Of a stretch of 64,000 bases of DNA, positions 6,343-30,363 are shown one piece after another. Positions within the stretch are counted from its first letter, which is position 1, and the number at the start of each line of letters is the position of its first letter. The notes beneath the pieces are model-generated. The model searched no databases. It worked only from the letters and a program-made list of their open reading frames with translations, and was not told where the DNA came from. The stretch lies in contig NZ_JALJAZ010000001.1 in the NCBI RefSeq assembly GCF_022899245.1, forward strand, positions 1,895,001-1,959,000, in the 5' to 3' direction. The DNA is from Falsirhodobacter halotolerans (GTDB taxonomy: Bacteria > Pseudomonadota > Alphaproteobacteria > Rhodobacterales > Rhodobacteraceae). The translations under genes and the position numbers were made by a program.

Positions 6343-7170
6343 ATGACCGAGAGCGCCATGACCCTGACCCAACCCGCCCCCGCCGCCAAGGCCTCCCCCG
6401 ACACGCAGACGGTGACCTCGGTCACGCACTGGACCGATTCGCTGTTCTCCTTCCGCACCACGCGGCCCCAGTCCCTGCGTTTCCGGTCGGGAGAGTTCGT
6501 GATGATCGGCCTTCCGGGCGACAACGGCAAACCGATCATGCGCGCCTATTCCATCGCCTCCCCCAACTGGGACGAGGAGCTGGAATTCTACTCCATCAAG
6601 GTGCCGGACGGCCCGCTGACCTCCCGCCTGCAGAACATCAAGGAAGGCGACCAGATCATCCTGCGCCCGAAACCCGTGGGGACGCTGGTCCATGACGCGC
6701 TTCTGCCGGGCAAACGGGTGTGGTTTCTGGCCACCGGCACGGGCTTTGCCCCCTTCGCCAGCCTGATGCGCGACCCGGAAACCTATGAGAAGTTCGACGA
6801 GGTCATCATGATGCACACCTGCCGCACGGCGGAAGAGCTGACCTATGGCCGCGAACTGGTCGAAGGGCTGGAACAGGATGAGCTGTTCGGCGAGATCGTG
6901 GCGGGCAAGCTGCGCTACTATCCCACCACCACACGGGAAGATTCGCCGCTGATGGGCCGCATCACCGACAACCTCGCCTCGGGCAAGGTCTTCACCGATC
7001 TGGGTCTGGATCCGATGGACCCCGCCACCGACCGCGCGATGGTCTGCGGATCGCTGGCGTTCAATCAGGACGTGATGAAGGTGCTGGAAGGCTTCGGCCT
7101 GCACGAAGGGGCCAATTCCGAACCGCGCGAATACGTGGTGGAAAAGGCCTTCGTGGGCGACGGGGTTTAA
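6343..7170 (+). CDS. fpr: Ferredoxin/flavodoxin-NADP+ reductase
   Basis: FAD enzyme that exchanges electrons between NADPH and ferredoxin or flavodoxin. The 275-residue protein has the FAD-binding RAYS motif (67-70) and the NADP-binding TGTGFAPF motif (131-138), and it ends in VVEKAFVGDGV, the extended C-terminus typical of bacterial subclass I Fpr. It is the last gene of the cobA-cysI-cysH run, 48 bases after the DUF934 gene, which suggests it powers CysI; a separate oxidative-stress role is also known for this family. The stop codon overlaps the end of the convergent downstream gene by four bases. Confidence 0.93.
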   Translation: MTESAMTLTQPAPAAKASPDTQTVTSVTHWTDSLFSFRTTRPQSLRFRSGEFVMIGLPGDNGKPIMRAYSIASPNWDEELEFYSIKVPDGPLTSRLQNIKEGDQIILRPKPVGTLVHDALLPGKRVWFLATGTGFAPFASLMRDPETYEKFDEVIMMHTCRTAEELTYGRELVEGLEQDELFGEIVAGKLRYYPTTTREDSPLMGRITDNLASGKVFTDLGLDPMDPATDRAMVCGSLAFNQDVMKVLEGFGLHEGANSEPREYVVEKAFVGDGV

Positions 7171-7754
7171 AGCCCCAAAGCTTCGCGGGCCGAGGCGAGC
7201 GCGGCGGCCAGCGTCTCGGGCGTTTGTTCGGCGGCGGCCAGCGCGCGTTTCAGCGTCTCCTTCGCGGCGCCGGGAATGCTTTGGTCGTCGATATAGTCCC
7301 GCACCAGCGCGGGGTCGTAGTTTTCGACCGTGAACAGGTCGGCGGGCGACAACTGGCTGATGGCGTCGGTCGCGGCCTGGCTGGCCGCCGCGGCGGCCGC
7401 CTGCGCACGATCGGCGGCGGTGGCGGCCGAATCAGCTGCGGCCTGGGCTTCCTCGGACCCGATGGCATTCTCCATCGCGGCCATCGCCTCGGCCGCTGCG
7501 TCCGACGCGGCGGCGGCGGCGGCATCGGCGGCGGCGGATGCGTTGGCGGCGGCGGTGGGGGCATCCTCGGGCGCCATCTCGGCGGCTTCCTGCGCCATTT
7601 CCGCAGCTTCCTCGGCCTCGGCCTGCGCCATCTCGGCGGCCTCGGCCTGTGCGGCGGCGGCGGCGGCCTCGCGTTCGGCGGGGACATGCACGAACTGATA
7701 ATAGCCCAGTCCGGCAAGGGCCGCGATGATCACCAGCGCAAAAATGGTCTTCAT
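7167..7754 (-). CDS. Alanine-rich membrane-anchored protein of unknown function
   Basis: I do not recognise a family. The 195-residue product starts MKTIFALVIIAALAGLGYY, an uncleaved-looking anchor or signal peptide. From about residue 25 to 140 it is almost entirely Ala with Glu, Gln, Met and Ser, predicting a long amphipathic helix or coiled coil. The last 55 residues (from SPADLFTVENYDP) are of normal composition and look like a small folded domain. The start has an AGGAG site before it. It is tail-to-tail with fpr, the two stop codons overlapping. The region outside the anchor would lie in the periplasm. Confidence 0.75.
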   Translation of the reverse strand: MKTIFALVIIAALAGLGYYQFVHVPAEREAAAAAAQAEAAEMAQAEAEEAAEMAQEAAEMAPEDAPTAAANASAAADAAAAAASDAAAEAMAAMENAIGSEEAQAAADSAATAADRAQAAAAAASQAATDAISQLSPADLFTVENYDPALVRDYIDDQSIPGAAKETLKRALAAAEQTPETLAAALASAREALGL

Positions 7755-7894
7755 TGGAACTCCTGATCCCTCAAGGTCCGTGGCGGACCCCATGTTTTCA
7801 GCCCAACGCATGACGATACTGGGCCGTTCCCTGCGGCTTTATGGTTGAAAGATAACGCTTGCGGCCCTATTTTGCGCTATGAATTGCAAATGCT

Positions 7895-23786: not shown

Positions 23787-24356
23787 TCAGGATGGGGATA
23801 CGAAAGCCCCGTCCGATTGTATAGCCTTCAGATCCTCGGGCCGGTCCACGTCGTGCAGACGGGATGGTGGAAGGGACACAAGCGTGGGTGAGGCTGCGCG
23901 CAGCAACGCGCCCGCCCCCCGGTCGCCGGTCAACGCCGTCAGGTCCGAAAGCCATGCGCGCGGGAAGATAACCGGGGGCATCATCACCCCGTCAAGAACC
24001 GCACAGGCCGGTCGGGACGGATCGGTTGCCAGCAGCCGGTCGACATCCCCGGCGGTCAGATCCGGCATGTCGCCCAGAAAGACCGCCAGACGGTCCACTG
24101 CGCCAAGACGCGACACGGCGGCGGCAAGGCTGTCGCCCTGCCCCCCGGCGGGAATGCGGTGCGTGCTCACCCCCTCCGCCTCGATCACGGGCCGCACGGC
24201 GTCGCTGGACACAACCGCCAGACGTTTGGGAAAGCGCGCCACCAGCCGGGCGGCATGGCAGACCATCGGCACACCGCGCACAGGGGTCAGAAGCTTGTCC
24301 TCTGCCCCGAACCGCCGCGACGCGCCGGCCGCCAGAAGAACGGCGCCAAGGATCAT
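23787..24356 (-). CDS. mocA: Molybdenum cofactor cytidylyltransferase (MocA-like)
   Basis: Nucleotidyltransferase that attaches CMP to molybdopterin to make the MCD cofactor used by xanthine-oxidase-family enzymes. The 189-residue protein has the MobA/MocA-type LLAAGASRRFG loop (7-17), a K following EDKL, and LGDMPD near residue 94. It overlaps the upstream xdhC gene by four bases and lies beside paoABC, whose family uses MCD, which supports MocA over the GMP-adding MobA. Confidence 0.85.
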   Translation of the reverse strand: MILGAVLLAAGASRRFGAEDKLLTPVRGVPMVCHAARLVARFPKRLAVVSSDAVRPVIEAEGVSTHRIPAGGQGDSLAAAVSRLGAVDRLAVFLGDMPDLTAGDVDRLLATDPSRPACAVLDGVMMPPVIFPRAWLSDLTALTGDRGAGALLRAASPTLVSLPPSRLHDVDRPEDLKAIQSDGAFVSPS

Positions 24357-25252
24357 CGGCGCGCGGCGGTCAGAACATCCGCCAGAACGCCCACCGCCAA
24401 GGTGCGCGCGTCACGGGCCGAGGGGATGGTGCCGAACGGATCGGCCATGCGGTCGATCTGCCCCTCCGGCACCCCGGCGGCGATCAGCGCCGCGCGCCGC
24501 CGCGCCCGCGCCTGAAAGCTGCCCTGCGCCCCCACGTAAAAGGCGGGCGAGGCCAGTGCCGTCGTCAGGATCGCCGGTTCCCAATCGTGGTCGTGAAAAA
24601 ACAACGTGACGGCGGTCCGGTCATCGATCGCCACCCCATCGGGCCAGCCGGGCGACAGCAGCGGCGTCGTCGCGAGGTCGGATGGCATGTCGGTGACATC
24701 GGGCGAAAACACCTCGACCAGATAACCGGAGGTGCGGGCCAACGAGGCGAAGGTCGCGGCCTCCGGCCCCTTGCCGAAGACCAGATGACGAATTTCGGGC
24801 AAGATGCGCAGGGTCAGGCCGTCCGCCTGCGGGGCCGTCGCCAGATGCCCATCCCGCCCCACGGACAGAACCGCCGCCTGCCGTGCGCGCAGGGCGGCGG
24901 CGATGCCCGACAACACGGCCCGATCCGGCGCGGGCACGATCAACACGTCCAAGCCCCCACCGCAGGGCAGCGCCAGATCGACGAAGGCCGACCCGCGACC
25001 ATAGCGCAGAACCTCGGGCCGATCCGCCGCTTCGGCCCGCAAGGCGACGTCCTGATCGATGCAGCCGGAGGAAAGCGATCCCGTCCGCCTCCCGTCCGCC
25101 CCGATCGCCATGGCCGCCCCGACGGGCCGATAGGACGGCCCCTCCACCCCCACGATCATCGCCAGCCGCGCCCCGTCCTCGCACAGCGCGGCCAAGGGCA
25201 TATCGCCCTCGGGCAGGGCGATGATCGGGGCGGGGTGGCCACCGTCCATCAT
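24353..25252 (-). CDS. XdhC family molybdenum-cofactor maturation factor (PaoD-like)
   Basis: Binds the molybdenum cofactor, protects it during sulfuration and inserts it into the partner enzyme. The 299-residue protein has the XdhC N-terminal domain (LSSGCIDQDV near residue 60, LPCGGGLDVL near 95) and a C-terminal Rossmann-like XdhC_C domain ending in GTIPSARDARTLAVGVLADV. It sits between paoC and mocA with four-base overlaps on both sides, like E. coli paoABC-paoD. Start may be the first or second of two consecutive ATGs. Confidence 0.87.
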   Translation of the reverse strand: MMDGGHPAPIIALPEGDMPLAALCEDGARLAMIVGVEGPSYRPVGAAMAIGADGRRTGSLSSGCIDQDVALRAEAADRPEVLRYGRGSAFVDLALPCGGGLDVLIVPAPDRAVLSGIAAALRARQAAVLSVGRDGHLATAPQADGLTLRILPEIRHLVFGKGPEAATFASLARTSGYLVEVFSPDVTDMPSDLATTPLLSPGWPDGVAIDDRTAVTLFFHDHDWEPAILTTALASPAFYVGAQGSFQARARRRAALIAAGVPEGQIDRMADPFGTIPSARDARTLAVGVLADVLTAARR

Positions 25253-27429
25253 GCGGCCGGCAGATGGTCGATCAAGCGGTCCACCGTCACCGGGTAATCG
25301 CGCACGCGGACGCCTGTCGCATCATGCACCGCGTTGGCAATCGCCGCCGCGACGCCGCACAGGCCCAACTCGCCAATCCCCTTGGCCTTCAACGGCGACG
25401 AGTTCGGATCGTCGGCGTTCAGGAAGATCACCTCCTGCACCGGGATATCGGCATGGACCGGCACCTCGTATCCCGCCAGATCGTGATTGGCGAAGAAGCC
25501 TTGGGTGACATCCACCTCCATCTTCTCGCTCAGCGCGGCGCCAAGGCCCATGGTCATCGCTCCGATCATCTGGCTGTGGGCGGTGACGGGGTTCAGGATG
25601 CGGCCCGCATCGGCAACGGCCAGCATCCGGCGCACCCGCACCTCGCCCGTGACGGCATCCACCCCCACCTCCACGAAATGGGCGGCGAAGGTGGCAAGCT
25701 CGTATTCCTTCGAGCGGAAATCACCGAACTCCATCTTGTCCTCGGCCACGATCTCCCCCTCGGCGGCCACTTCGGCCAAGGTGCGGGAGACGTTCCCGTC
25801 GGTTACCAGCCCGTCGCGGAAATCCAAGGCGTCGGGTTGCGATCCGATGCGCCGCGCCACCGCCTCGCGCAGGGCGATGCAGGCGGCATAGACGCCGCCG
25901 GTCGCACTGACCGCGCCGAATTGTCCGCCCGACCCGGCCGACACCGGGAAGGAGGAATCCCCCAGACGCACCTCGACCGCGCCCAGCTCCACCCCCATCA
26001 TCTCGGCCGCCGTCTGGCCAAGAATGGTATAGCTGCCGGTGCCGATGTCGGTCATGTCGGTTTCCACGATCAGACGCCCGTCCGGCTGCAACCGAACCCG
26101 CGCCCCGGAGGGCATGACGGGCGAGCCGCGATACGCCCCCGCCACGCCCTGCCCGATCAGCCAGTTCCCGTCACGGCGTGTGGCCGGTGCGGGTCGGGAC
26201 GCGTCCCAGCCGAATGCCTCCGCCCCCCGTTCCAGACACTCGATGAAATGCCGGTTGGAAAAGGTGCGGTCCGGGTCTTCCGGCACGGTCTGCGTGTCGT
26301 TCAGGATGCGGAACTGCACGGGATCGACGCCTGCGGCCTCTGCCGCCTCGTCTATCGCGATTTCCAGCGCCATCAGACCCGACGCCTCGCCCGGCGCGCG
26401 CATCGCATTCGCTTCCGGCAGGTCCAGCGTCGCCAACCGGTTCACCACCAGACGGTTGTCCCCGGCATAGAAATAGCGGGTCTGGTTCGTCGCATCCTCG
26501 CCATCGCCGTCCGGCAAGGTGCCGGAGGTGTTGTCATGCGCGATTGCCGTGATGCGCCCATCCGCGTTCATCCCGATGCGCAGGCGCTGGATCGTGGCCG
26601 ACCGGTGGGTGGTGTTGTTCATCATCATCGGACGGGGCAGCGCCACCTTCACCGCGCGCCCCACCTTGCGGGCCGCAAGGGCGGCCAGAACCGCATCGGC
26701 CCGCAGGAACAGCTTTCCGCCGAACCCGCCGCCGATATAGGGGCTGTCGATCCGCACCTTGTCCTTGGGCATCTCCAGCGTGTTCGCCAGACCCTTCTTG
26801 CCCCAGGCAATCATCTGGTTGGAGGTCCAGACCGTCACGGCATCCCCCTCCCACGCCGCGATGCTGGCATGGGGTTCCATCATGGCATGGGACTGTCCGG
26901 GCGTGGTATAGGTCTGATCGACCGTCACCGCCGCCTTGGCGAAGGCCGCGTCGAAATCGCCGACGGTCTTTTCCAGCGCGACCTCGGTGTCGGCCGCCTC
27001 CATGTCGAACCGCCCCTTTTCGGGCGCGTAATCGACGACGATGGCCTGGGCGGCGGCGCGGGCCTGTTCGAACCCTTCGGCCACGACCACGGCGATGGCC
27101 TGATGGTAATGCCGCACCTCGTCCCCCCCGAACAGCGACGTGACGTTGTTGCTGTCGGTGGGCAGGGCGTCCATGTCGAGCGTGGTCAGGATATCGACCA
27201 CACCCGGCATCGCGCGGGCCGCGGTCGTGTCCATCGACCGGATGCGCCCCTTGGCGATGGTCGCCCCAAGGGGATACCCGATCAGCTGATCCGGGGCCAC
27301 GTCATGCCGCTCATAGGCATAGGGGGCGCGTCCGGTGACCTTCAGCGGCCCTTCGATCCGCGGATGCGGCTTGCCCAGAACGGTCATACGGTCGGCGGGG
27401 GTGCCGCCTGCGGGTTTGTCGAATTTCAT
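25249..27429 (-). CDS. paoC: Aldehyde oxidoreductase molybdenum-binding subunit (PaoC/YagR-like)
   Basis: Catalytic subunit of a xanthine-oxidase-family enzyme oxidising aldehydes with water as oxygen donor. The 726-residue protein is close in size to E. coli PaoC. It has the MCD-binding segments YIGGGFGGK and AMRAPGEASG, and GIGELGLCG near the C-terminus, where Glu687 is in the position of the catalytic base (Glu692 in E. coli PaoC). The stop overlaps the XdhC gene and the start lies one base after paoB. The physiological aldehyde is unknown; an isoquinoline or nicotinate-type hydroxylase is a less likely alternative. Confidence 0.86.
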   Translation of the reverse strand: MKFDKPAGGTPADRMTVLGKPHPRIEGPLKVTGRAPYAYERHDVAPDQLIGYPLGATIAKGRIRSMDTTAARAMPGVVDILTTLDMDALPTDSNNVTSLFGGDEVRHYHQAIAVVVAEGFEQARAAAQAIVVDYAPEKGRFDMEAADTEVALEKTVGDFDAAFAKAAVTVDQTYTTPGQSHAMMEPHASIAAWEGDAVTVWTSNQMIAWGKKGLANTLEMPKDKVRIDSPYIGGGFGGKLFLRADAVLAALAARKVGRAVKVALPRPMMMNNTTHRSATIQRLRIGMNADGRITAIAHDNTSGTLPDGDGEDATNQTRYFYAGDNRLVVNRLATLDLPEANAMRAPGEASGLMALEIAIDEAAEAAGVDPVQFRILNDTQTVPEDPDRTFSNRHFIECLERGAEAFGWDASRPAPATRRDGNWLIGQGVAGAYRGSPVMPSGARVRLQPDGRLIVETDMTDIGTGSYTILGQTAAEMMGVELGAVEVRLGDSSFPVSAGSGGQFGAVSATGGVYAACIALREAVARRIGSQPDALDFRDGLVTDGNVSRTLAEVAAEGEIVAEDKMEFGDFRSKEYELATFAAHFVEVGVDAVTGEVRVRRMLAVADAGRILNPVTAHSQMIGAMTMGLGAALSEKMEVDVTQGFFANHDLAGYEVPVHADIPVQEVIFLNADDPNSSPLKAKGIGELGLCGVAAAIANAVHDATGVRVRDYPVTVDRLIDHLPAA

Positions 27430-27430
27430 C

Positions 27431-28372
27431 TTACGCCCCTTTCAGCAGGTCGGACGCGATCCGGCCCGCCAACGCGAGTTTGAACTTGTTGTCTTCCGTG
27501 GGGGTCGCGCCCTTGAAGGTCTCGGCCAGAAAGGCGTCCACATCGGGCAGCAGGTTTTCCGCCGCCTCCACCCGCCACGGGCGCGGGGCCATTCCGCCGA
27601 ACGCCATCTGCGCCGTGCCGTCGGGCTGCACGATGGCCGCTACCGACACAAGCGCGAAGGCATAGGACGCGCGATCCCGCACCTTGCGATAGGTCTGCAC
27701 CCCGCCCACGGGCGGCGGCAGCGTCACATGGGTGATGATCTCACCCTGTTTCAACGCCGTCTCAATATGCGGCGTGTCCCCCGGCAGGCGGTGGAACTCC
27801 CCCAAGGGGATGTCCCGCGTGGCCCCGGTGGCGTCCGCCACGGTCACCACCGCGCCCAGCGCGCGCAAGGCCACGGCCATATCGCCGGGATAGGTGGCGA
27901 TGCACGCCTCGCTGACACCGATCACGCCCAATTGCCGGCTGGCCCCCGTCTGCGCCGCGCATCCCGATCCGGGGGTGCGCTTGTTGCAGGCCATGCCCGT
28001 ATCATAGAAATACGGACACCGTGTGCGCTGCATCAGGTTCCCGGCGGTGGTCGCACGGTTCCGCAACTGCCCCGAGGCCCCGGCCACGATGGCGCGCGAC
28101 AACACTGGCCAATCCTTACGCACCCGCGCGTCCGCCGCCAGATCGGTGTTGCGCACCAGGGCGCCGATCTTCAGACCGCCATCGGGGGTCGTCTCGATCC
28201 CGTCCAGATCCAGCCCATTCACGTCGATCAGATGGGCGGGGGTTTCCACCCCGATCTTCATTAGGTCCAAAAGGTTGGTGCCCCCGGCGATCACCTTCGC
28301 CTCGGGCCGGTCCAGGATCATCGTCGCGGCCTCTGCCACCGAACCTGCGCGGTCGTAGGAAAACGCCCTCAT
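27431..28372 (-). CDS. paoB: Aldehyde oxidoreductase FAD-binding subunit (PaoB/YagS-like)
   Basis: Passes electrons from the Fe-S subunit through FAD. The 313-residue protein has the FAD-binding [13 protein letters not shown] (27-39) and the [13 protein letters not shown] segment. Cys119, Cys129 and Cys138 (TRCPYF...GMAC...GSGC) are the ligands of the additional [4Fe-4S] cluster known in PaoB. It overlaps paoA by four bases. Confidence 0.87.
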
Positions 28373-28887
28373 GCCCCAGCCTCCACCGAACGCAACGCCG
28401 CGAGGATGTTGGCATAGGCGCCGCAGCGGCAGATGTTCCCGCTCATCCGCTCCTTGATCTCGTCATCCGTCATCTCCACCCGGTCCAGATTGGCGGATAC
28501 GTGGCTGGGAACCCCGGCGCGGATCTCTTCCAGCATCGCCTTGGCCGAACAGATCTGACCGGGCGTGCAATAACCGCACTGATACCCGTCATGCTCCACA
28601 AAGGCCGCCTGCAGCGGGTGCATATCCTCGGGCGTTCCAAGTCCCTCGATCGTCGTGACCTCATCCCCTTCATGCATCACGGCCAGGGAAAGGCAGGAGT
28701 TCATGCGCCGCCCGTTCACGATGACGGTGCAGGCCCCGCACTGCCCGTGATCGCAACCTTTCTTGGTTCCGGTCAGGCGCAGATGCTCGCGCAGGGCGTC
28801 CAGCAGCGTTACGCGCGGGTCGAGGGTAAGGTTCACATCCTTTCCGTTCACGGTCATGCGAACGGCGGTTGGGGCTGCGGTGGTCAT
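28369..28887 (-). CDS. paoA: Aldehyde oxidoreductase [2Fe-2S] subunit (PaoA/YagT-like), no Tat leader
   Basis: Carries the two [2Fe-2S] clusters. The 172-residue protein has plant-type ferredoxin cysteines 45, 50, 53 and 65 ([10 protein letters not shown]...) and the second-cluster cysteines 104, 107, 153 and 155 (CGYC...NICRC). E. coli PaoA has a twin-arginine leader of about 50 residues that exports the whole complex; here the protein begins [15 protein letters not shown] with no leader, so the enzyme is probably cytoplasmic. AGGAGG lies six bases before the ATG. First gene of the paoABC-xdhC-mocA-transporter run. Confidence 0.87.
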
Positions 28888-28960: not shown

Positions 28961-28985
28961 AACGTGACCGGGCGAACACGGTTCC
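28961..28985 (-). promoter_or_regulatory. Candidate ECF sigma promoter of paoA
   Basis: On the minus strand GGAAC and CGTT are separated by 16 bases, matching the GGAAC-N16/17-CGTT consensus known for EcfG-type and related ECF sigma factors in alphaproteobacteria. It would give a leader of roughly 65 bases before paoA. No sigma-factor gene is nearby; functional assignment is inference. Confidence 0.4.
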
Positions 28986-29006
28986 CGTCAATCGCGTGAA
29001 TCCCAG

Positions 29007-29033
29007 GGAACCGGATGCCCCCGGCCCCTGTTC
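29007..29033 (+). promoter_or_regulatory. Weaker ECF-like promoter toward the response regulator
   Basis: GGAAC followed after 17 bases by TGTT, one base off the same ECF consensus. Its GGGAACC is the right arm of an inverted repeat whose left arm (28980-28986) is the -35 of the paoA candidate. It could drive the response regulator about 105 bases downstream. Confidence 0.25.
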
Positions 29034-29146: not shown

Positions 29147-29527
29147 ATGATACACGCACCGATAGAGATAAGCGCCGCGCGCGTGCTTGTCGTCGAGGAT
29201 GAGCCTCTGATCGCCATGCTTATGGAAGATTACCTGAGCGATCTTGGATATTCCGTCATCGGTCCCGCCCGCGGGGTGAGCCAGGGCCTCTCGCTCTTGC
29301 AGGCCGAGGCGGTGGATTTCGCCGTTCTGGACGTCAATCTGGCAGGCGAGGTCTCTTTTCCCATCGCGGATGCCCTGGCGGATCGCGGAATCCCCTTCAT
29401 CTTTGCCAGCGCAAACAGCCGCGCCTGCCTGACCCCGCGGCATTGCGACGCGCCGATGCTGGGCAAACCCTTCGCCTTGGCCGATCTGGAACGTGTTCTG
29501 GGCGGCGCGGACCTTCATCACGTCTGA
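29147..29527 (+). CDS. Single-domain response regulator
   Basis: A 126-residue receiver domain without an output domain. The acidic pair is in VVEDEP (Glu17-Asp18), the phospho-acceptor Asp62 is in VLDVNLAGE, the switch Ser88 in FASAN, and the conserved Lys107 in LGKPF. The [13 protein letters not shown] stretch resembles receivers paired with HWE/HisKA2 kinases in alphaproteobacteria. A GGAG site nine bases before the ATG selects this start. No kinase gene is adjacent, and the next gene, surE, is 53 bases on, so it is an orphan here. Confidence 0.87.
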
Positions 29528-29580: not shown

Positions 29581-30363
29581 ATGCGCATCCTGATCACGAA
29601 CGACGACGGCATCGCCGCCCCCGGCCTGAATGCGTTGACCGAAATCGCCCACACCCTCGCCGGACCCGAGGGTGAGGTGTGGACCGTGGCCCCCGCCTTC
29701 GAACAATCGGGGGTCGGCCATTGCATCAGCTATACCCACCCCACCCTGATTTCCCGCCTGGACGACCGCCGCTATGCCGCCGAAGGCAGCCCCGCCGATT
29801 GCGTTCTGGCCGCCATCCATGAGGTGTTCGGCGGCGACAAGCCGGATCTGATCCTGTCGGGCGTCAATCGCGGCAACAACGCGGGCGAAAACGTGGTCTA
29901 TTCCGGCACCGTGGGCGGCGCGATGGAAGGGGCGCTGCAGGGCGTGCCCTCCATCGCCCTGTCGCAATACATGGGCCCCGCCACGCGCGCGCTGGACGAT
30001 CCCTTCGAGGCCGCCCGCATCCACGGGGCCGATGTGATCCGGCGCCTGCTGGATCGCGGCATCTGGGACGAGGCCGCCTATCGCATCTTCTACAACGTGA
30101 ACTTCCCGCCCGTGGCCGCCGCCGATGTCAAAGGGTTGCGCGTCGCGCCGCAGGGCTTCCGCACCGGCAGCCATTTCACGACCGAACCGCATCTGTCCCC
30201 CTCGGGCAAGCCGTTCTTCTGGATCAAGGGCGGTGCGCAAGGACCGGCCGAACCGGGCAGCGACGTGACCCTGAATCTGGAGGGATACGTCACCGTGACG
30301 CCTTTGCGCTGCGATTTGACCGCCCATGACCGCCTGAAGGATCTGGAGGCCGCGCTGGCATGA
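29581..30363 (+). CDS. surE: 5'/3'-nucleotidase SurE
   Basis: Metal-dependent phosphatase acting on nucleoside monophosphates, tied to stationary-phase survival. The 260-residue protein opens [16 protein letters not shown] with the metal-binding Asp8-Asp9, and has [18 protein letters not shown], the rest of the SurE site. A GGAAGG element precedes the ATG. It overlaps pcm as ATGA, the classical surE-pcm-nlpD order. Confidence 0.95.

Follow-up and report, generated by a model that had tools for sequence, protein, structure and literature searches.

The two GGAAC boxes lying back to back between paoA and a single-domain response regulator gene are probably the -35 elements of divergent EcfG promoters, one serving paoABC and the other the regulator. 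The genome encodes an EcfG-type sigma factor, NepR and PhyR, and each box recurs before its own gene in relatives, both of which support the EcfG-type promoter reading put forward from the sequence alone. On this evidence the inverted repeat that the boxes form is best read as the outward appearance of two back-to-back -35 elements, i.e. of two divergent EcfG promoters, and the element adds a conserved example to a type of regulon that is already known; it is not a new kind of element. The two sides are supported in different ways, the regulator-side box more firmly as an inherited state and the paoA-side box more firmly as a habit of the whole family. Elsewhere in the genome, a 20-kb piece of contig C3 has its best match in a Falsirhodobacter algicola plasmid (80.7% over 23% of the query), so that Falsirhodobacter or a close relative, within the Rhodobacteraceae, is the likely source. 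Below, the window denotes the entire 64,000-nucleotide stretch of DNA that was analysed.

Architecture of the paoA-regulator region

The inverted repeat described in the sequence-only reading is present to the base (Table 1). The minus-strand GGAAC (28985-28981) and the CGTT downstream of it (28964-28961) are separated by 16 bases, the plus-strand GGAAC (29007-29011) and its TGTT (29029-29032) by 17; the neighbours are also those that had been claimed, with paoA (minus) on one side and the single-domain response regulator (plus) on the other. Set against the layout of an EcfG-dependent promoter (GGAAC, then CGTT or NGTT after 16-17 bases), the minus-strand site is a strict match and the plus-strand site a looser one, N17-TGTT. 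The latter layout is covered by the EcfG motif of Sphingomonas melonis, GGAAC-N17-20-GTT, and the target table for that organism lists an N17-TGTT site, #0072 (PMC6599016). The repeat arms extend imperfectly to 19 nt with 79% complementarity, and the two GGAAC boxes stand 21 nt apart, a gap at which polymerases at the two boxes might hinder each other.

Table 1. Predicted promoter elements in the window and the genes around them
Feature	Position	Strand	Remarks
paoA-facing promoter (predicted), GGAAC-N16-CGTT	28961..28985	-	ends 73 nt before paoA start codon
regulator-facing promoter (predicted), GGAAC-N17-TGTT	29007..29032	+	ends 114 nt before regulator ATG
inverted repeat left arm, GGTTCCC	28980..28986	+	-35 of leftward promoter (predicted)
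inverted repeat right arm, GGGAACC	29006..29012	+	-35 of rightward promoter (predicted)
MobA-like nucleotidyltransferase	23787..24356	-	
XdhC/CoxI-family maturation protein (paoD-like)	24353..25252	-	
paoC, molybdenum subunit	25249..27429	-	NCBI PaoC model 1219.6 vs cut-off 1180, passed
paoB-like FAD subunit	27431..28372	-	Pfam FAD_binding_5, CO_deh_flav_C
paoA, 2Fe-2S subunit of aldehyde oxidoreductase	28369..28887	-	NCBI PaoA model 313.9 bits, cut-off 322
single-domain response regulator, FATGUY-like (PFIFASAN)	29147..29527	+	
surE	29581..30363	+	downstream of regulator in 7/7 genus genomes

All three subunits of PaoABC are recognisable by family scores, with PaoC above its cut-off, PaoA slightly under its own and the FAD subunit assigned by Pfam. 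The window PaoA aligns with the NCBI PaoA model only from position 50; an N-terminal export signal thus seems to be missing, and the enzyme may be cytoplasmic, in contrast to the exported PaoABC enzyme of E. coli (PMC4273604).

The product of the rightward gene is a stand-alone receiver with a motif of its own, PFIFASAN, the FATGUY consensus being PFxFATG(G/Y); its relatives carry PFIFATGN, PFIFATAN, PFIFATGG, PFCFATAH and, twice, PFIFATGY. It resembles the FATGUY-type receivers of the general-stress pathway (MrrA/SdrG), with or near which it would belong.

A putative EcfG, NepR and PhyR in the genome

The promoter proposal had been made to depend on an ECF factor of this specificity being encoded in the genome, and an EcfG-type sigma factor was found, together with NepR and PhyR; promoters of this layout are also predicted where these genes lie. 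A PF04542 search returned seven sigma factors. One of their genes adjoins that for PhyR (365.7 bits, cut-off 240), its product passes the NCBI equivalog PRK12546 (ECF sigma factor; 326.6 vs 270), and the NepR gene sits between phyR and ecfG. The name EcfG is taken from this arrangement of phyR, nepR and sigma factor genes together with established knowledge, no matched model bearing that name. The phyR-nepR gap holds two overlapping predicted GGAAC-N16-CGTT promoters, one per strand, and of the six HWE kinases encoded in the genome one lies near ecfG.

Two further sigma factor genes lie close behind strict sites. A second EcfG-like ECF gene, L036 (G000:C1:2131405-2134590, minus; 168 aa from the likely ATG), has a strict GGAAC-N16-CGTT site (G000:C1:2133170-2133194) 28 nt upstream of its start, which suggests that expression of this sigma factor may itself depend on a stress sigma. 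At L010 a sigma-70-family factor gene (311 aa and not ECF-sized, from L010:1562) begins 37 nt past the strict site G000:C1:554012-554037, so the stress sigma may also be connected to a sigma factor of a different kind.

Placement of the motif across the genome

The genome-wide search proposed in the sequence-only reading gave a divided answer, in that strict sites are placed before genes but show no excess in number over the reversed pattern. The 3.08-Mb genome contains 61 strict GGAAC-N16/17-CGTT matches vs 60 of the reversed pattern, so the mere presence of the motif means little, genome-wide counting is uninformative, and the case rests on position and conservation instead of number. Within the window the looser GGAAC-N16..19-GTT has nine matches vs a shuffle mean of 4.6, with 6 of 100 shuffles reaching nine; three of the nine lie outside called coding sequence, namely the back-to-back pair and one at 7805. 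This last (7805-7830, minus) is a strict GGAAC-N17-CGTT site, 7 bases of which fall within the beginning, as called, of a 214-aa frame (7167-7811, minus). The frame has no Pfam or NCBIfam match, and its true start may lie further in.

Placement was compared for the first 30 of the 61 strict and the first 30 of the 60 reversed-pattern sites, in contig order, using a simple gene call from third-position G+C. Strict sites were intergenic in 21/30 cases vs 7/30 for the reversed control (Fisher p 6.3e-4), and both intergenic and before a same-strand start in 14/30 vs 1/30 (Fisher p 1.7e-4). The proteins scanned behind these sites (10 of the 14) comprise two PRC-barrel proteins, a DUF982 protein, DJ-1/PfpI, BrkB, a fasciclin protein, OmpA with a glycine zipper, a short-chain dehydrogenase, a Rieske/pyridine-nucleotide oxidoreductase and a sigma-70-family factor, several of which we take to be products of the usual general-stress genes. 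A PRC-barrel gene is listed in the S. melonis EcfG target table (PMC6599016).

Conservation on the regulator side

The regulator is present in 7/7 genomes of the genus, at 55-63% identity in the other six. Three of these (G002, G004, G005) share the window's gene order of paoA, regulator and surE and carry a perfect GGAAC-N16/17-CGTT on the regulator strand, 116-128 nt before the ATG. To judge from its nearly equal distance (114 nt), the window TGTT box is the counterpart of these better boxes, although weaker than their CGTT form; the four paoA-regulator gaps align poorly (G004 and G005 being only partly included), and box-to-ATG distances were used instead. In G001, where the upstream gene order differs, GGAAC-N16-GGTT lies 78 nt before the regulator ATG. 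The only motif match in G003 and G006 falls inside the upstream histidine-kinase gene and was not counted; the regulator of these two genomes (L043, L044) stands directly behind this HWE-like kinase gene, which is likely to be its partner and this its older neighbourhood.

Beyond the genus, a perfect intergenic box was found for one (L068) of five more distant Rhodobacteraceae regulators, the match in L072 falling inside an upstream kinase gene and that in L071 on the other strand, with none in L069 and L070. From a regulator-alignment scan of named genomes 80 loci were kept, the best at 51% identity, which is below the genus orthologues and makes the scan uninformative for the genus. At 16 of these loci the motif stood on the coding strand and at 3 on the other strand; the reversed pattern gave 1 and 2, respectively. 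The 28 best-ranked loci (L073-L100) account for 3 of the 16, and all but one of the remaining 13 come from Rhizobium-group records, so that the scan weakly supports the idea that EcfG and FATGUY receivers are linked in general.

Conservation upstream of paoA

Homologues of paoA (E at most 1e-50) were found in 42/295 Rhodobacteraceae genomes, with 55 matches in all. GGAAC-N15..18-NGTT lies no more than 400 bp upstream on the coding strand at 18/30 and 7/25 of these loci, and on the other strand at 3/30 and 1/25; the reversed pattern was absent from the coding strand in both sets of loci and occurred on the other strand once, among the 25. The homologues were divided into a full-length class (matching over 465 nt or more) and a shorter one, a split made after the matches had been seen. 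For the 44 full-length homologues a count was made of every 5-mer/3-mer pair at promoter spacing within 300 bp upstream, and GGAAC..GTT ranked first with no preset motif, occurring on the coding strand at 24/44 loci; the second-ranked pair (13 loci) is the same motif shifted by one base. Over 60 dinucleotide-shuffle rounds GGAAC..GTT averaged 0.4 and reached at most 2, the best of any pair being 16. Twenty of the 44 loci have no match, five of them (L166, L167, L169, L171, L190) showing a one-mismatch form 41-69 bp upstream, and TGTT is also seen in the family sites L174, L181, L182 and L192. Within the genus the paoA-facing box was found only in the window species, being absent from 3/3 syntenic relatives (G002, G004, G005).

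In the shorter class the motif occurs within the family at 1/11 loci, at -240. A class draw outside the family (400 bp) gave 2/15 full-length and 6/12 shorter loci with the motif, the controls for the shorter and full-length classes being 1 and 1 on the other strand and 1 and 0 for the reversed pattern. The motif is therefore not special to PaoA proper, and EcfG-type boxes also precede other molybdenum-hydroxylase operons in other Alphaproteobacteria. In a phylum draw (300 bp; 27 new and 37 further loci, all full-length, with L292 dropped at a contig end, and the remaining matches, some of them full-length, left out of the count) it was found at 2/30 full-length loci of other Alphaproteobacteria and 1/33 of other classes. 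Pooled, full-length paoA has the motif at 24/44 loci in the family vs 5/78 outside it (p 4e-9, a value that ignores shared descent), which suggests that full-length paoA carries an EcfG-type motif mainly in Rhodobacteraceae.

NepR was found in 139/295 family genomes (137 above the curated cut-off). Taking the paoA and NepR draws as the same genomes, since their handles and numbers agree, NepR is present in 41/42 genomes with paoA vs 98/253 without (p 3e-14, again ignoring shared descent). The sole paoA genome lacking NepR, G187, has only a shorter-class match, without the motif.

Alternative readings

Only one of the two boxes may be functional: the paoA box could be active and the regulator-side TGTT decayed, or the inherited regulator promoter active and the paoA box due to chance in this species. 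Such a state, which we regard as unlikely, would fit the TGTT found in place of CGTT on the regulator side, the missing paoA-facing box in the three syntenic relatives and the equal abundance of the strict motif and its reversed control; however, TGTT occurs in the four family paoA sites named above and in the S. melonis target list, most full-length family loci (24/44) have a box facing paoA, and control matches are seldom both intergenic and upstream of a gene. The boxes could instead be read by another ECF factor, i.e. the second EcfG-like one rather than that linked to phyR, and the strict site before L036 gives this idea some footing. Promoters of this layout also stand beside the gene of the phyR-linked factor, however, so that the observations fit either factor and the two may overlap in specificity; we consider a reader other than the phyR-linked factor improbable.

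The sequence-only reading had also allowed that the repeat might be an operator, in which case a dimeric regulator would bind it to control both genes and the likeness to promoters would be accidental. Palindromic arms within a shared divergent region are what such a site would offer, but the arms are not kept together in G002, G004 and G005, each of which retains a single arm, and the unit that recurs is one GGAAC followed by GTT at the distance expected of a promoter, pointing one way with respect to each gene. Since the boxes recur before orthologous genes, mostly without each other, a pair of promoters is the better reading, and we hold a palindromic operator to be highly improbable.

Proposed mechanism and relation to known systems

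Under the two-promoter reading, stress would lead to phosphorylation of PhyR, which would draw NepR off EcfG, as in the described pathway where PhyR phosphorylation releases EcfG from NepR (PMC5830050). We infer that EcfG-RNA polymerase would then transcribe paoABC and the maturation genes leftward and the single-domain regulator rightward, with paoABC serving as an aldehyde-oxidising effector during stress and the regulator carrying phosphate between kinases of the HWE type and the PhyR circuit. Phosphate transfer between HWE/HisKA2 kinases and that circuit is the described role of MrrA and SdrG (PMC5964349; PMC6599016); were the window regulator to act like them, its EcfG promoter would constitute a feedback loop in stress signalling, as the divergent arrangement suggests. 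The likeness to MrrA (Caulobacter) and SdrG (Sphingomonas) lies in the stand-alone receiver, in the PFxFATG-like motif of the window protein's relatives, some of whose genes immediately follow an HWE-like kinase gene or face one, and in the six HWE kinases of the window genome, whereas the window motif itself, PFIFASAN, differs; the comparison is drawn from motif and neighbourhood.

The predicted promoters resemble known EcfG (RpoE2/SigT) promoters in having equally spaced GGAAC and GTT boxes and in the presence of the sigma, anti-sigma and PhyR genes, but differ in standing as two back to back, for an aldehyde oxidoreductase and a receiver, and in being known from sequence. In S. melonis Fr1 a CoxL/M/S-type operon (#1297-1299) appears in the EcfG target table (log2 ratios -3.3, -4.5 and -4.8) and, like paoABC, is a molybdenum-hydroxylase operon with a GGAAC box for its small subunit (PMC6599016); it belongs, however, to another order of Alphaproteobacteria and is likened to PaoABC by operon type only. 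As far as the available parts of the reports go, the PhyR system of Rhodobacter sphaeroides is reported to matter mainly for membrane stress (PMC5830050), and a three-subunit enzyme of the xanthine-dehydrogenase family in Rhodopseudomonas palustris rises with ppGpp, EcfG control not being stated there (PMC13343836). In the open-licence literature we found no paper linking EcfG and the general stress response to an aldehyde oxidoreductase, or PaoABC to an alphaproteobacterial stress sigma factor.

On a broader proposal we are evenly divided, namely that paoABC is a core, lineage-wide EcfG output in Rhodobacteraceae, occurring almost only with NepR, and that it here shares a back-to-back promoter with a FATGUY phosphate carrier feeding into that pathway, the aldehyde-oxidising enzyme and the gain of the stress signal being switched together from 72 bases. 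If this is true, paoABC would provide a conserved and assayable output of the general stress response, and its promoter a readout, for Rhodobacteraceae.

Paired boxes at other loci

Back-to-back GGAAC boxes, their 5' ends 26 bp apart, also lie between paoA and a divergent gene at L175 (G097; 1380-1455). The divergent gene is BrkB/YihY-like as read by eye, and a BrkB gene stands behind a strict site in the window genome too (L020). Upstream of the small-subunit homologue at L222 (G393) and L217 (G675) there are face-to-face, overlapping GGAAC promoter pairs, a layout like that in the phyR-nepR gap of the window genome.
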